Below, one piece after another: positions 55,715 to 62,249 of a stretch of DNA of 64,000 nucleotides (its first letter is position 1; every line of letters begins with the position of its first letter). A program made the translations under genes and the position numbers. The notes below the pieces were generated by a model. It saw only the letters and a program-made list of their open reading frames with translations, was not told the DNA's origin and made no database searches. Source of the stretch: Pseudanabaena biceps (GTDB lineage: Bacteria > Cyanobacteriota > Cyanobacteriia > Pseudanabaenales > Pseudanabaenaceae); NCBI GenBank assembly GCA_013361095.1, contig JAATWA010000001.1, positions 992,001 to 1,056,000 of the forward strand, given 5' to 3'.

Positions 55715-55765
55715 TAATTGTCGAGTTTAGTCACGTACACCTCAAAACACGTTCAAGTTTTTACC

Positions 55766-56035
55766 ATGGCACTTTTGCAAGAACGCAAACTAGAAATATT
55801 CTCTGAATATCAAAAGCATCCCACCGACACTGGCTCCTCTGACGTACAGGTAGCTTTGCTTAGCGAGCGTGTCAGTCAGTTGACAACTCACCTCAAACTA
55901 CATCCAAAGGATTTTTCTTCTCGCCGTAGTTTGCTCAAAATCATCGGTCAACGTAAGCGCTTACTCGCTTATGTTAAGAGCCAAGATCGCGCTCATTACA
56001 AGCAACTGATCCAAAGCCTTGGTATCAGAGGCTAA
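55766..56035 (+). CDS. rpsO: 30S ribosomal protein S15
   Basis: 89-residue primary binding protein of the 16S rRNA central domain. Core features: HPTDTGSSDVQVALLSERV and LTTHLKLHPKDFSSRR with GQRKRLLAYV. ATG at 55766; a longer frame to 55718 adds 16 residues not found in S15. Followed by a terminator-like palindrome and then a PAM68-type gene, a neighbourhood I recall as conserved in cyanobacteria. Confidence 0.97.
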   Translation: MALLQERKLEIFSEYQKHPTDTGSSDVQVALLSERVSQLTTHLKLHPKDFSSRRSLLKIIGQRKRLLAYVKSQDRAHYKQLIQSLGIRG

Positions 56036-56111: not shown

Positions 56112-56170
56112 CGAACCAATAATTGTTTAAAAGTGTTGCAAAGCAACACTTTTAAACAATTATTGGTTCG
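56112..56170. repeat. Perfect palindrome
   Basis: CGAACCAATAATTGTTTAAA... around GTGTTGCAAAGCAACAC; a different arm set but the same GCAAAGC loop. Confidence 0.85.
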
Positions 56171-56257: not shown

Positions 56258-56327
56258 TTGTTTAGGTATTGCCTAGCACTGGAGAGTCTAGAATTAGGTA
56301 ACTGATATTGCTAAAGTGAGGAGTAAA

Positions 56328-56864
56328 GTGAGTAAACCCACCACAGAACGTATACCATTCGAGCCGAATAATCGTGCCAAGAAATCTAAGGAAGTTAAAA
56401 AGTCAACGACTATTCCCGCAGACTCTAGTGATAAAACTTCTAAGAAGGCTCCTGTCAAGAACGTAACGACTAATCAAAGCAAAGTTAAGACAGCCTCTAC
56501 CCCTAAGCGTAATGACTCACTCGGTATTCCTGACGAAGTAAATCGGCGTATTATTCGACGAGCCACCATATTTTGCGGCATTCCTACGGGGTTAGGACTC
56601 ACTACATTTATTGTTAGCTATGTACTGGTTAGCAAACATATAGTTGATTTACCAACCTCGGCAGTGGTACTCCTAAGTATGTTGTTTTTAGGCATTGGTG
56701 TTGTAGGACTAAGTTATGGAGCTATTTCTGCTTCTTGGGATGAAGGTAGAGTTGGCAGTTGGTGGGGTAGCAATGAATTCAAGAAAAATTTTGGATATTT
56801 GAGAGAAGCTTGGCGATCGCAACAAAAAATAGTCAGAGCTGCTCAGACGAAAGATCGCGATTAA
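56328..56864 (+). CDS. PAM68 family photosystem II assembly protein (DUF3464)
   Basis: 178 residues from a GTG at 56328, which has GAGGAG 5 bases upstream; a GTG at 56316 is in frame but precludes that site. A basic, Lys/Ser/Thr-rich N-terminal third (about 1-60) precedes the two-helix core: IFCGIPTGLGLTTFIVSYVL (about 85-105) and AVVLLSMLFLGIGVVGLSYG (about 115-135), then the conserved SASWDE...GSWWGSNEF. PAM68 helps early PSII assembly and CP43/CP47 insertion in the thylakoid membrane. Downstream of rpsO. Confidence 0.9.
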   Translation: MSKPTTERIPFEPNNRAKKSKEVKKSTTIPADSSDKTSKKAPVKNVTTNQSKVKTASTPKRNDSLGIPDEVNRRIIRRATIFCGIPTGLGLTTFIVSYVLVSKHIVDLPTSAVVLLSMLFLGIGVVGLSYGAISASWDEGRVGSWWGSNEFKKNFGYLREAWRSQQKIVRAAQTKDRD

Positions 56865-56865
56865 A

Positions 56866-56903
56866 CATAAAAAAAGCGGCGCTTAGCACCGCTTTTTTTT
56901 ATG
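56866..56903. terminator. Bidirectional terminator
   Basis: CATAAAAAAAGCGG / CCGCTTTTTTTTATG around CGCTTAGCA, between the convergent PAM68 and V4R genes. Confidence 0.8.
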
Positions 56904-56914
56904 GAGAGATAAAT

Positions 56915-57571
56915 TTATTTGAGCAATCTCTGCAAAACTGTTTCGTGGGACAGACCTTCGGCAAGAAAAGACTCAACAATCCCCAGTCTTTCGGGTAAGC
57001 CAATAATGTAGGTATTACATTCTGCACCTAGGGACTCACAGGTAGTTTGAACAGCCAATAGCTCCCGACCAGTTAATCGACTAAAGAAGGAAGTCAGTAT
57101 CCCCGCCTCTAGATAACCTGTTGGTAGAGTATTACCTTCGATCTTACGGACGTAAGGCGAATTGTAGGTCTTTATAAAGACAAAACCCTGCGTCTGGTAT
57201 TGGGGATCAAATTCAAACTTACCCCAGCCATGAGTTTTCCAACATTCCTTAAGACTTTGAATGAAGGTGATCATATCCATCTCGGCAAGGGACTGCGAAT
57301 AATATTCTTCGAGGGATTCGGTAAAGCGGGTATAGAAGTTTTTACCCCACCATTTTCCACAGTTAAATAAAACCAATCGTGAAGCTTGCCCTGTTTCTTT
57401 GGCTAGTCCTGAGTAGAGGGAAGAGATTAATGTGTCTGGAACAGCGATCATGCGATCGCCGCGTCGATTTTCTAATAACCCAATTTCTAGATCTCCTTTG
57501 ACATAGGAATTGTAGTCAAAAAAGTTAGAGGGAATGCGATTTTCCTTGATGAGGTCGGCAACAGAAATCAT
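56915..57571 (-). CDS. V4R domain protein, last gene of Pap-like cluster
   Basis: 218 residues. The C-terminal half is a V4R (4-vinyl reductase) small-ligand domain with ELLAVQTTCESLGAECNTYI, whose two cysteines may bind a metal or tetrapyrrole; the family name does not imply enzymatic activity. The middle has AKETGQASRLVLFNCGKWWG. Together with a second V4R gene, a phycobilisome-like protein and a ferredoxin it forms a cluster recalling Synechocystis slr0144-slr0148 (Pap operon, photosystem assembly). Cytoplasmic, no membrane helix. Starts 12 bases after the preceding gene. Confidence 0.87.
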   Translation of the reverse strand: MISVADLIKENRIPSNFFDYNSYVKGDLEIGLLENRRGDRMIAVPDTLISSLYSGLAKETGQASRLVLFNCGKWWGKNFYTRFTESLEEYYSQSLAEMDMITFIQSLKECWKTHGWGKFEFDPQYQTQGFVFIKTYNSPYVRKIEGNTLPTGYLEAGILTSFFSRLTGRELLAVQTTCESLGAECNTYIIGLPERLGIVESFLAEGLSHETVLQRLLK

Positions 57572-57583
57572 GGTGGTTTGTCT

Positions 57584-58042
57584 CTAGTAGATGAGCGTGA
57601 CTTGAGCAGCGGTGATCAAAGGCTGAATCATAGCCAATTGAGGAGGACTCAACTGTTGGCGCATAACTTGATTGAGCAACTTGTAGAGGGTTTCATTGAG
57701 TCGGCGCATATCACGCATAGACATAATTCCTTCTAACCAATTCAGTAATCTTTGCTTCAGGAAGTTTTCGTCATTAAGCAACATTGCCATTGAGCAGTAA
57801 CGCACCACCAAAATTAAGTTTCTCACGCCAGTTTCGAGGTCTTGCTCAGTTATATTTGGCAATTCTGATGGGACTTGATCGGCGACAGCCTGCAAAATAT
57901 CAATCTCGCGATCGCGTATTAGTTTGTAGAGCTTTAAGCGATCAGGCAAGGAACTAACATAACTTTCCATCATTCCCAACTCATCGGAGGCTAGATAGCG
58001 ATCCTGAGCTTGGTTGATTAATTCTTGAATCTTCGGAATCAT
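57584..58042 (-). CDS. Phycobilisome-like (globin-fold) protein of Pap-like cluster
   Basis: 152 residues, all helical. Its pattern NLILVVRYCSMAMLLNDENF, then LLNWLEGIMSMRD and LSPPQLAMIQPL, resembles phycobiliprotein-type globin folds (YITYAV.AGD..., CLNGLRE...). The canonical bilin-binding cysteine context is missing, so it probably carries no chromophore; one Cys remains in RYCSM. Phycobilin-like proteins of unknown role are known in the slr0144-type cluster. Fourth gene of a five-gene minus-strand operon. Confidence 0.75.
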   Translation of the reverse strand: MIPKIQELINQAQDRYLASDELGMMESYVSSLPDRLKLYKLIRDREIDILQAVADQVPSELPNITEQDLETGVRNLILVVRYCSMAMLLNDENFLKQRLLNWLEGIMSMRDMRRLNETLYKLLNQVMRQQLSPPQLAMIQPLITAAQVTLIY

Positions 58043-58104
58043 AATTATTTATGTTGCGATCGTTAAGGTTTTAGCACTGAGGATATACCTCATGCATTCT
58101 AGGA

Positions 58105-58380
58105 TTAGAAAAAATTAGAAATATCATCCAGAAAGTCTTCGAGAGTTTCTTGAGTTTCATCAATGGGCGGATGAACTATTTTGGGTTCACTGGTGGAGGC
58201 GATTTCGAGAATGCCAGTCCAAGAAATCGCACGAAAATAGTCTTTTACAGACATTAAAAAGCTTAAGGATTCGGGTGCTTTTCCATTAAGGTTTCGGGTA
58301 GGGGCGATTGCTTGATTTTCCCAATTAACATTTTGCCAAAAGGTCTGCAATGGCTGCAATCGCCAATCTGAAGTACTCAT
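58105..58380 (-). CDS. Short unknown protein of Pap-like cluster
   Basis: 91 residues, no family recognised; starts MSTSDWRLQPLQTFWQNV and ends with the acidic stretch ETQETLEDFLDDISNFF. Its ATG overlaps the TGA of the upstream V4R gene (ATGA), so it is translationally coupled to it. Probably a small accessory partner of the V4R protein. Confidence 0.8.
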   Translation of the reverse strand: MSTSDWRLQPLQTFWQNVNWENQAIAPTRNLNGKAPESLSFLMSVKDYFRAISWTGILEIASTSEPKIVHPPIDETQETLEDFLDDISNFF

Positions 58381-59057
58381 TTTAGAAATTCTCCATTTCG
58401 TAGACGACCTTCAATATCGCGAGTAGTTGCACCTTCATTAAGCCAAAATGAAGCGGCATCAATGCGATTTTTACCACCGAGAAGAAACTTGCAGTAGTTT
58501 TCGCCCATCGAATAGCACTGAATTTCAATGCACTCCAACTCTTTGTTGACTAAATGAGTAAAGAAACCTGAGAACAGCCCCGCATATAGATGACAAACTG
58601 GTTTACCCACATCCCCTAAACTACGAGCTACTGCCGAGTCAAACACACTAATGAACATAAACCCCTGCTTGCGATCGCTCATATCCACCTGCCAGCGTCC
58701 CCAGCCCTGAGATGTGAATGGCCACCACCAAGTCTCTAGTAAGAATGGCAAATTAGTTTGGCGGATACTCCGCCCAAAATCGCGCTCAAACCATTTCGTA
58801 AAAAATAATGCGTCCTGTAATCCCCATTCACAGCCAATAGAGTACATGACTGCTGCTGAAGCTTCGCCAACTTCATCTTCCAAGCCTTCTTGTAGCCCAA
58901 TGATAAAATCTTCACTGGTCAGAATATTTCTGGAGCCATTCCAATCTTCAATAATTCCTTTGTCAAGATTAGGTAGAAAAAAGTCTTGCAGACTGTAATG
59001 GTTATTTTTTCTCTTAGCCCTAGTAGCACTATTAGGACGATCTACAGCAACAGTCAT
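58377..59057 (-). CDS. V4R domain protein, second gene of Pap-like cluster
   Basis: 226 residues. N-terminal basic segment (DRPNSATRAKRKNNHYS), then FLPNLDKGIIEDWNGSRNIL and the C-terminal V4R domain with LECIEIQCYSMGENYCKFLL. It is a distant paralogue of the V4R protein at the other end of the cluster (both keep the paired cysteines and the GFMFI/GFVFI strand). Counterpart of Slr0147, as I recall. Overlaps the next gene by four bases. Confidence 0.87.
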   Translation of the reverse strand: MTVAVDRPNSATRAKRKNNHYSLQDFFLPNLDKGIIEDWNGSRNILTSEDFIIGLQEGLEDEVGEASAAVMYSIGCEWGLQDALFFTKWFERDFGRSIRQTNLPFLLETWWWPFTSQGWGRWQVDMSDRKQGFMFISVFDSAVARSLGDVGKPVCHLYAGLFSGFFTHLVNKELECIEIQCYSMGENYCKFLLGGKNRIDAASFWLNEGATTRDIEGRLRNGEFLK

Positions 59058-59173
59058 AAGTCAATACTCCTATCCGAAATTTTTTTGAGTTCAATGTTGA
59101 TTCTTAATTCAGCGATGCTAGTGCGACATTGTTGTATAGATGGAGAAAAGAGACTTGGGCGATCGCTCAATTC

Positions 59174-59674
59174 TTACTTTGTCTCAAAAATATCGGCTCT
59201 TTTGGTATTTGCCAACTGTTCACCCACGCTAAAGTTGGTGTTTTCAAGCTGACGTACCACTGATCTCGTAATTAATTGTCCGACTTCAACTAATGTCTGC
59301 CCCGTAATTGGACTGAGCAGAGGCTTTTCACATCGTCTTCCGATTAAGGCGGCGATATCTTGAATCGACTGAACATACATCCCAACAGGTAGTTCAACAA
59401 CAATACCTTCGCCCATGACTTTTGCTTGACAAGCAAGTCTGGAGTTAGGCTTGCAGGTGGTAATCACTTCTAGGGTACGTTGTTCCCTTTTGCCCATAGG
59501 GCTGAGAGCTGTCATACCTTCTTGAATGTAAACGTGACAAGTCGCGCACATGCCGCGCCCACCACATTCTTTTAAAATATTTAGCTCCTCTCCCATTAAG
59601 CCAGATAACAATGCACCATTTGTTGCAATGTCTGCGACTTGGGCAATAGGCTCAATTCTCACGCGCTTAGCCAT
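59174..59674 (-). CDS. 2Fe-2S ferredoxin-domain protein, first gene of Pap-like cluster
   Basis: 166 residues. Plant-type ferredoxin fold at about 1-100 with the cluster ligands in ECGGRGMCATCHVY and a fourth cysteine in SRLACQAKV. About 65 further residues (GMYVQSIQDIAALIGRR onward) are helical and not part of ferredoxin. Likely an electron-transfer partner for the V4R proteins; counterpart of Slr0148 in the Synechocystis cluster. First gene of a minus-strand operon of five. The 570-base gap upstream (59675-60244) has no gene. Confidence 0.88.
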   Translation of the reverse strand: MAKRVRIEPIAQVADIATNGALLSGLMGEELNILKECGGRGMCATCHVYIQEGMTALSPMGKREQRTLEVITTCKPNSRLACQAKVMGEGIVVELPVGMYVQSIQDIAALIGRRCEKPLLSPITGQTLVEVGQLITRSVVRQLENTNFSVGEQLANTKRADIFETK

Positions 59675-59969: not shown

Positions 59970-60030
59970 ATATAAAAAAACAGACCTATGGCGCACGCTG
60001 CGCGTGCGCCATAGGTCTGTTTTTTTATAT
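59970..60030. repeat. Inverted repeat with GGCGCACGC core
   Basis: ATATAAAAAAACAGACCTAT... around GCGCACGCTGCGCGTGCGC; T7 right arm. The gap 59675-60244 contains this, 60108-60156 and 60186-60243. Confidence 0.8.
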
Positions 60031-60107: not shown

Positions 60108-60156
60108 AAGAAAAAATTTGAAGGGCTTGCAAAGCAAGCCCTTCAAATTTTTTCTT
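60108..60156. repeat. Perfect palindrome with GCAAAGC loop
   Basis: AAGAAAAAATTTGAAGGGC and its complement around TTGCAAAGCAA. Preceded by ACAGCACTTTGCGCTTTCTT as at 15690 and 27391. Confidence 0.8.
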
Positions 60157-60244: not shown

Positions 60245-61303
60245 TTAAAAAAGTATTTGCTTTTGACGGCTGGTGAGGCAATCTTGTTCAAGCATTTGAT
60301 CAAAATTGCGAATTACTTGTTTACATCGCTTGACATAGCTGGTTACCCATTCCTGAATTTGGTGATGCTGATCTAAATTGCAGGCGATCGCCTTTTGCTT
60401 AGGGTGAGACAAATGACCACTGCGATCGATCTCAATCTCAGTTAGCCATGCGGCTGTCTGGGGACGACTAGATTTCCAATAATTAGTGACAACGACTTTA
60501 CCTAGATATTGCGTAGTAAATTCGCTTAGTTTGTTTAAAGCTTCCAAAAGTTCATCTAACTTATACTCTTGCGTGTCAGTTTTCGCTGATACTGACTTAT
60601 TAGAGCTAGTTGCCGCAGCTAGATTGTTGTTGGCAGTGGTGGTCTCAGCGATAGGGCTGGGTTTAGCAGATGCAGGAGGTACTTGAGGCTTAGATATATT
60701 TGGCTGAGTTCTGGAAGGTGTCGGCGTACTAGGAGTCACAGTTGACTGTCGTTGGGATGGCGCAGTCTGAGTATTGGAGCGAGTCGTGCTAGCGATCGCC
60801 GCCGCATTCTGGCTAGGAACTTTAGTCGCAGGAGTAGCAACAGAATTAGTCAAGTTTTGTGTAGTTGACTGCGGCTGTGGTATTTCTGTGGGACTAGTAG
60901 CATTCCAGCTATTGCTAGGCAAAGAATGCTGTGTCACTGAACCTAGTAAGAGCTTAAAGTGTGCGACTGTATTGTAAGTATCTGTTTCTAGCAAATACTT
61001 AATTTTGGTAATCCCTCGCCGATACTCAACTGCTTTCAGATCGCTATCTGTAAGCACCAGTAGCACTAATCCATGCTTTAACTTATAGATAAAGACGACA
61101 TGACCAGCAAAATGAAATTCAAAGGATTCAAATCCATCTGGTACATTTTCAACAACTTGCAGTACCCCCTGTCCTAATGCTTGTTTTGTGCGATCCATTA
61201 CGGTATCTAGCCCGTAAAAGTAAGGACGCATACGGCGATTTGTGAGGGCAATCCCCACAACTCCCATTGAACTTAAAAATTCCTGAATAACCTCCCGACT
61301 CAT
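60245..61303 (-). CDS. Hypothetical protein with proline/serine/threonine linker
   Basis: 352 residues in three parts. Residues about 1-120 are an alpha/beta domain ([40 protein letters not shown]) that resembles a Roadblock-type fold. About 125-235 is low-complexity Ser/Thr/Pro/Gln/Ala linker. About 240-352 is a second conserved-looking domain ([23 protein letters not shown]-like; [19 protein letters not shown]). No family name recognised. It is divergent from rbcR with only 19 bases between the starts, so they share promoter DNA. Confidence 0.82.
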
Positions 61304-61322: not shown

Positions 61323-62249
61323 ATGATCGATATACCGTTCACCCTAGACCAATTACGCATTCTCAAAGCAATCGCTGCTGAAGGTAGCTTTAAACGTGCT
61401 GCTGATAGCCTGTATGTGTCTCAACCTGCCGTTAGTTTGCAAGTCCAACATCTAGAGCGACAGCTAGATGTGCCTTTGTTTGATCGCGGCGGACGCAGAG
61501 CGCAGTTGACAGAAGCAGGACAGTTACTTCTTTCCTATGGCGATCGCATTTTAAGTCTTTGTCAAGAAACTTGCCGCGCCATTGATGACTTACAAAATCT
61601 TAATGGTGGGACTCTCATTATAGGCGCTAGCCAAACGACAGGAACTTATCTAATGCCTCAAATGATCGGATTATTTCGTAAGAAATATCCCGAAGTCTCG
61701 GTACAACTCCATGTTCATTCTACAAGGCGAACGGCTTGGAGTGTGGCAAATGGGCAAGTAGATCTAGCAATTATCGGCGGTGAAATTCCTGCCGACTTAT
61801 TAGATTCTTTAGAGATTACACCCTATGCCGAAGATGAACTAGCACTAATTCTACCAACTTCTCATCCGCTTACTCAGGTGGGCGCGTTACCAATTGAGGA
61901 GTTGTATAAATTGCAATTTATTACCCTTGATTCGCAATCGACCATCCGTAAAGCCATTGATCGGGTGTTGCTAGATAGCAGTGTCGATCCGCGCCAATTA
62001 ACGATCGCGATGGAGCTAAATTCGATCGAGGCGATCAAAAATGCTGTGCAGGCAGGATTAGGAGCTGCATTTTTGTCGGTGACGGCGATCGAAAAAGAGT
62101 TACAGATGGGAGCTTTGCAACGGGTTCAGATTGAGGGGGTTGTAATCAAGCGGATGTTGTTACAAATTAGGAATCCTAATCGCTATCGGTCTAAGGCGAC
62201 TGAGGCATTTTGTAACGAGGTATTACCAAGTTTTCGGGATAAAACATAG
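61323..62249 (+). CDS. rbcR: LysR-type regulator RbcR
   Basis: 308-residue LysR regulator that controls the RuBisCO operon in cyanobacteria and red-algal plastids (Ycf30). N-terminal winged helix [20 protein letters not shown] through [20 protein letters not shown] (about 5-65), then the effector domain with [20 protein letters not shown] and [20 protein letters not shown]. It matches what I recall of Synechocystis Sll0998 along its length. ATG at 61323 is the family start. It ends in a clear terminator. Confidence 0.95.

Follow-up and report, generated by a model that had tools for sequence, protein, structure and literature searches.

A Pap/BBAG gene cluster of Pseudanabaena with the ferredoxin gene in front, a probably ancestral order

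In a 64,000-nucleotide stretch of the 5.57-Mb genome of Pseudanabaena biceps (NCBI GenBank assembly GCA_013361095.1, contig JAATWA010000001.1, positions 992,001 to 1,056,000), hereafter the window, it was found that five genes lie side by side on the minus strand (Table 1). They are transcribed in the order of a ferredoxin (Fd), a first V4R protein (V4R-A), a short protein, a phycobilisome-fold globin and a second V4R protein (V4R-B). The genes are as tightly packed as the initial annotation had described, and its coordinates and spacing were exact: Fd and V4R-A are separated by 116 bp, the V4R-A and short-protein genes share a 4-bp ATGA overlap, and gaps of 62 bp and 12 bp precede the globin and V4R-B genes, respectively. 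A promoter scan of the Fd/V4R-A gap gave 3 promoter-like sites, compared with 9.0 in shuffled sequence. Pfam families were assigned to four of the five proteins, the short protein having none. The ferredoxin scores 296 bits with the cluster profile, and the Cx5Cx2C...C cluster motif is present in all 58 orthologues from the loci described below. With its Fer2 domain and this score, it is a 2Fe-2S protein of the type found in Pap/BBAG clusters; a phycobiliprotein-like globin lies between the short gene and V4R-B, and the two V4R proteins belong to two different clades, A and B. The five genes make up a cyanobacterial Pap cluster, as the initial annotation had recognized; it corresponds to slr0144-slr0149 in Synechocystis and is called the 'BBAG' cluster in PMC10151467.

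Table 1. Positions of the cluster genes and of other features discussed in the text (window numbering unless a locus is named)
Feature	Position	Strand	Evidence or remark
2Fe-2S ferredoxin (Fd), slr0148/Fed5-type	59174-59674	-	Pfam Fer2 2.8e-7
V4R-A, slr0144-type, zinc-type V4R with C155/E178/C181/C189	58377-59057	-	Pfam V4R 1e-21
Short protein, 91 residues, presumed slr0145-type	58105-58380	-	no Pfam match
Phycobilisome-fold globin, 152 residues, presumed slr0146-type	57584-58042	-	Pfam Phycobilisome 8.2e-10
V4R-B, slr0147-type, degenerate zinc site	56915-57571	-	Pfam V4R 9.4e-9
up352, roadblock/LC7-like N-terminal domain and helical C-terminal domain; upstream of Fd	60245-61303	-	
Terminator-like hairpin after V4R-B, in common with convergent pam68	56869-56899	-	14-pair stem and T run
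pam68 (photosystem II/CP47 assembly factor family), convergent with V4R-B	56316-56864	+	
rpsO, precedes pam68	55718-56035	+	
LysR regulator, divergent from up352	61323-62249	+	
Pair of long palindromes in the up352/Fd gap	59977-60023 and 60109-60155		
Second Pap-like clusters	L115:3182-7861 (genome G346) and L118:425-5136 (genome G193)		two Fd genes, receiver-like protein, CNRD globin

The same families, namely two V4R proteins, a ferredoxin, a globin and a short protein, make up the pap operon slr0144-slr0152 of Synechocystis PCC 6803. In published accounts, slr0144 and slr0147 are the V4R genes (PMC13326532), slr0148 encodes Fed5, a 2Fe-2S ferredoxin reported to be dispensable (PMC4284462), and slr0149 is described as phycobiliprotein-related. 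Thus, the Synechocystis order given in the initial annotation was right, and Fd stands first in the window rather than behind V4R-B. Nor does the slr0149-type globin gene follow the second V4R gene; it stands as an orphan at another place in the same genome. Since the order is variable in this family, the difference does not disqualify the window cluster. In the flanks, where the search was made, slr0150-slr0152 are not adjacent to the cluster, and the neighbours are instead pam68, rpsO, a roadblock gene (up352) and a LysR gene; slr0150-slr0152 are reported to be often absent (PMC10151467).

Is the Fd-first order peculiar to this genome? I performed a profile search of genome contigs with a 23-row globin alignment, by which 80 loci were analysed and 36 further relatives were confirmed; alignment A1 combines the window with 22 of the 29 further loci in the first relative list. 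The first search matched 60 of 386 genomes, a figure not used as prevalence, some of the weak matches being true phycobiliproteins. Together with the window, the gene-order set comprises 81 loci, 77 with a complete core and 4 cut by contig ends. In all 77 complete loci, the core of V4R-A, short protein, globin and V4R-B is found in one order on one strand. Thus, the cluster is not a product of chance. Between loci, only two genes change place, that for Fd and that for a second globin of the slr0149 type (globin2). Fd precedes the core, without globin2, in 20 loci (the window and the 19 Pseudanabaena-type loci L033-L051), while six Leptolyngbya-type loci have Fd, globin2 and the core in this order. 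The Synechocystis form, in which the core is followed by Fd and globin2, occurs in five loci; in 25 loci, and in two more with a cut core, globin2 and Fd lie behind the core on the opposite strand. As for the others, three have globin2 before the core with no Fd detected, one has the core and globin2 only with one end cut, 17 have the core alone (in several of these, one flank is shorter than 4 kb), and two are cut at the core. The core order of the window is that of the Synechocystis-like loci L109-L112. The order had been called inverted; an inversion of the cluster as its origin was rejected, since core order and strand are constant in the complete loci and only Fd, with or without globin2, relocates. 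Rather, the window order is general in Pseudanabaena-type loci and equals that of a non-photosynthetic outgroup.

This outgroup, G010, belongs to another class of the phylum. One of its contigs carries Fd, V4R-A, a 249-residue short-type protein, a globin, V4R-B and a heme oxygenase (locus L152), and a bilin reductase lies a few kilobases away on the same contig. No Photo_RC match (photosystem reaction centre) was found in the G010 genome. The L152 order is the same as in the window, with a longer short-type protein between V4R-A and the globin. The pre-1/pre-3 PcyA (BBAG) clusters of heterotrophic bacteria described in PMC10151467 likewise hold an Fe-S protein, V4R-A, V4R-B and a globin, whereas the window cluster lacks the heme oxygenase and the bilin reductase, and its globin lacks the CxRD motif. 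Fd is also first in a second, diverged Pap-like cluster of the Pseudanabaena genomes G346 and G193 (L115 and L118), and in locus L150 of G177, which has an extra weak globin reading frame. G177, which I take to be a member of the Thermostichales, has a second cluster without Fd, and G035 has cluster fragments only. In addition, up352 lies directly upstream of Fd in 17 of the 19 Pseudanabaena-type loci and in all six Fd-globin2-core loci; of the two absences, L035 has only about 1.1 kb before Fd, while L046 truly seems to lack the gene. In 16 of the 19 Pseudanabaena-type loci and in all six Fd-first loci of the Leptolyngbya type, up352 has a divergent LysR gene beside it. Since up352 and LysR flank Fd in both types, the arrangement is of common descent. 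Since the same order is found in the non-photosynthetic outgroup and is general in Pseudanabaena-type loci, Fd-first is probably the ancestral state, and the order of Synechocystis a derived one.

The initial annotation had suggested that the 152-residue protein has a phycobilin fold without a normal bilin cysteine. The fold is supported by modelling, and the missing cysteine is confirmed. An AlphaFold2 model (pLDDT 89.2, pTM 0.83) has the predicted fold of a phycobiliprotein, with allophycocyanins and other phycobiliproteins among the 50 Foldseek matches listed (TM 0.67-0.79, probability 1.00), and the sequence has GVRN at the position of the phycobiliprotein CxRD motif, so that the cysteine and the Asp are both replaced. 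It therefore lacks the CXRD motif of the bilin-binding BBAG-1 and BBAG-3 globins. The bilin cysteine is present in only 3 of 81 cluster globins of the window type. In a globin tree of 99 of the 151 sequences (near-identical rows thinned and the partial L105 dropped), the window globin does not group with ApcA/ApcB/ApcF-type proteins, and the three phycobiliproteins of the window genome form a separate branch, the root being a midpoint root only. The earliest branches of the cluster-globin clade are the G177 copies, which have CRRD and CRRH (87/80 and next 95/90), and the crown (100/96) comes after them, a pattern that suggests a stepwise loss of the bilin cysteine. It is plausible from the motif that the window globin is chromophore-free, as had been proposed. 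The loss of the cysteine and the Asp fits this proposal, but BBAG-2 globins without CXRD are reported to bind biliverdin (PMC10151467). Tandem globin domains were also observed near heme oxygenase genes in non-photosynthetic relatives, two in L152:5115-5921 and about four in L154:3-1529.

The slr0149-type globin had seemed a candidate for loss from the window genome, which was rejected when an orphan copy was found 2.4 Mb from the cluster (G000:C17:3452219-3452686, 198.5 bits). Its motif is WKQD, again without the bilin cysteine. Of 42 slr0149-type globins encoded in the cluster loci, 19 have C and 23 have W at the bilin position. The four Pseudanabaena orphan copies examined have neighbours in common, none of which is a cluster gene. 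Of 13 genomes of the genus, 11, among them that of the window, gave a second-globin match of at least 143 bits, and 5 gave a globin type of 113-115 bits; the latter includes the CNRD globin of G346, and a CNRD globin with an intact bilin motif is also present in G193. The system seems to have been lost from G393, of the same genus, which has weak phycobiliprotein-type matches only and neither Pap globin. In all four Pseudanabaena genomes examined (L114:2295-3675 in G000, the window genome, and L117, L119 and L122), a phycobilisome-like globin with CKYD stands as an orphan beside a protein with a phycobilisome linker domain. Relatives with CQYD are separated from the Pap core by about 5-7 kb in L061, L065 and L086.

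Could the globin still hold a pigment? It might bind a bilin non-covalently or via another residue, and the cluster would then be a bilin/heme-state sensor that reports tetrapyrrole supply to photosystem II (PSII) assembly. The biliverdin-binding BBAG-2 globins, the heme oxygenase and bilin reductase of the ancestral cluster and the globin fold retained in the model all fit such a sensor, which is nevertheless unlikely in view of the replaced CxRD cysteine and Asp in the window and nearly all crown relatives and of a second globin in the same genome that has no cysteine either.

The two V4R proteins differ in their putative metal sites. Phenol-sensor V4R domains are reported to bind zinc via three Cys and one Glu (PMC10715001, PMC7264223). 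The residues C155, E178, C181 and C189 are kept in all 84 V4R-A proteins, while E178 is changed in all 87 V4R-B proteins (to Q in 85) and C189 is replaced by N in 84 of the 87; thus, the complete Cys/Glu/Cys/Cys set is found in 84 of 84 V4R-A and 0 of 87 V4R-B proteins. V4R-A has the same Cys spacing, C-x25-C-x7-C with the Glu three residues before the second Cys, as the sensor domains of MopR, DmpR and PoxR. Unlike them, it is a stand-alone protein without an ATPase or DNA-binding domain, and it resembles the PDB entries only weakly in sequence: in HMMER comparisons with the PoxR and MopR sensor domains the three Cys line up, with E values (0.017 and 0.85) that are weak alone. Since the zinc Glu of DmpR is given as Glu172, two residues off the position aligned with E178, the assignment of the Glu ligand is less secure than that of the three Cys. 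The sequences support a metal-binding V4R-A and the loss of the site in V4R-B, so that, of the two tetrapyrrole- or metal-binding V4R proteins initially suggested, metal binding is supported for V4R-A only. In a tree of 41 of the 171 V4R sequences, clades A and B are each supported at 100/100, with one window copy in each. The outgroup V4R-A and V4R-B fall in the matching clades, the latter on a very long branch. The presence of both in the outgroup agrees with PMC10151467 and speaks against a duplication that occurred only at the origin of the thylakoid-bearing cyanobacteria.

The short protein has two FFxxxxWxG-like motifs, and the pattern FF/FW/YF-xxx-W-x-G/N repeats. At least one strict copy is present in all 79 short-protein homologues and two copies in 43, and up to about five were counted by eye in the G089 protein. 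The C-terminus is an acidic/aromatic tail, usually of aspartate and aromatic residues. The gene is single-copy in the window genome; a search with alignment A5 matched the cluster gene only, and no other FFxxxxWxG protein was found in this genome. The protein looks like a motif-bearing linker. In the literature searched, slr0145 is named in one paper, and there only within a list.

The flanking genes have their own features. The AlphaFold2 N-terminal domain of up352 shares its predicted fold with roadblock/LC7 proteins (Foldseek E 6.2e-5 to LAMTOR, with MglB among further matches); the overall pTM is 0.41, owing to a disordered linker. This linker joins it, unlike in MglB and LAMTOR, to a helical C-terminal domain found with the Fd-first cluster type. 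The C-terminal domain was detected in 33 of 97 locus records searched, a few of which overlap each other; the second Pseudanabaena cluster is among them, and there the domain lies behind a receiver-like domain. The gap between up352 and Fd is shorter than 10 bases in L058, L083, L101 and L107. Because two long palindromes intervene in the window genome, co-transcription of up352 with Fd is doubtful there. A palindrome similar to this pair is also found near 56120-56165 of the window. The LysR neighbour, presumably RbcR-like, has no NCBIfam model above the cut-off among the 25 of 56 models listed. The convergent pam68 gene is the neighbour in 17 of the 19 Pseudanabaena-type loci and in none of the 61 other loci. 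Pam68 is reported to be a CP47 assembly factor (PMC9145668).

What might the cluster do? According to the comparative data, its ancestor was probably a bilin-biosynthesis cluster with Fd, V4R-A, short protein, globin, V4R-B and heme oxygenase in this order, near which lay a bilin reductase gene. From the cyanobacterial cluster, the genes of both enzymes probably departed, the cluster globin lost its bilin-attachment cysteine, and a second, slr0149-type globin arose, after which the pair of Fd and second globin relocated; in the window genome, Fd probably stayed in front and the second globin became an orphan. The cluster proteins may assemble into a single complex on the thylakoid membrane, like Slr0144-Slr0149, which are reported to co-fractionate with thylakoids and to co-purify with tagged Slr0149 (PMC9880817). 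In such a complex, the V4R-A/V4R-B pair would hold a tetrapyrrole or another flat hydrophobic ligand, with zinc stabilising V4R-A, while the ferredoxin would set the redox state of the complex or the ligand. The flexible short protein might tie the subunits together via its FFxxxxWxG motifs, and the cysteine-less globin would be a structural partner or, at the utmost, hold a bilin non-covalently. Together, the proteins would allow pigment to be handled safely during PSII assembly or repair. The pap operon has been linked to PSII function (PMC9145668, PMC4853703), and Pap proteins are reported to increase together with the enzymes of chlorophyll synthesis when cells grow under carbon-rich conditions (PMC9175036).

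Several points weigh against this interpretation. The outgroup order comes from a single genome, a 91%-complete draft of about 270 contigs, and a V4R-A match was found in only 1 of 18 genomes of its class. The outgroup globin has VSRD and a long branch, which makes the ancestral cysteine state uncertain, and the globin tree is weakly supported at its root and in part of its deep branching (87/80; 94/79). A V4R duplication at the base of Phycobacteria, as stated in PMC13326532, conflicts with the V4R tree obtained here. According to PMC10151467, the PSII phenotypes may stem from slr0150-slr0152, which do not adjoin the window cluster.

A rival reading, raised in PMC10151467, is that the five genes have no special PSII role, the Pap phenotype being due to slr0150-slr0152 and the cluster being a small redox/ligand-sensing module of another pathway. 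The flanks, in which pam68, rpsO and up352 but not slr0150-slr0152 were found, are in line with this, and the roadblock and LysR neighbours suggest regulation. I consider it rather improbable, given the reported thylakoid location and co-purification of Slr0144-Slr0149 and, as weak evidence since the genes are convergent, the adjacency of Pam68 in most Pseudanabaena-type loci. Least probable is a secondary rearrangement to Fd-first in the Pseudanabaena and Leptolyngbya lines with a chance or laterally transferred match in the outgroup, for although the whole cluster is known from one outgroup genome and the Fd/globin2 pair is mobile (behind the core in 25 loci on the opposite strand and 5 on the same), Fd-first order is also found in G177 and the second Pseudanabaena cluster, the up352 and LysR flanks are common to both types of Fd-first loci, and the outgroup V4R-A branches outside all cyanobacterial copies rather than within them.

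Thus, the interpretation slightly favoured here is a Pseudanabaena form of the Pap/BBAG cluster in the ancestral order, whose products form a complex at the thylakoid that handles pigment. Its evolutionary part is quite probable, while the full mechanism is put forward tentatively. A bolder possibility, advanced with more reserve, is that an operon which once made bilins lost its heme oxygenase and bilin reductase and became an assembly machine without pigment; its globin, having lost the bilin site stepwise (CRRD/CRRH in early-branching copies, then GIKN/SIKN), would be a colourless structural subunit between a zinc and a zinc-less V4R protein.

The Pap/BBAG system itself is already known. 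The titles and abstracts listed in the literature searches contain no account of the Pseudanabaena order, of the zinc difference between V4R-A and V4R-B, of the motif in the short protein or of the neighbouring roadblock gene, some of which full texts, figures or supplements may show. The ancestral order would tie the Pap/BBAG cluster to bilin synthesis, and the comparison bears on the timing of the V4R-A/V4R-B separation. The zinc/zinc-less V4R split, the linker-like short protein and the side-by-side globin clusters may serve as handles on Pap/BBAG function. Since some Pseudanabaena keep a second complete cluster with CNRD, the cysteine-less and CNRD states may be compared within one genus.

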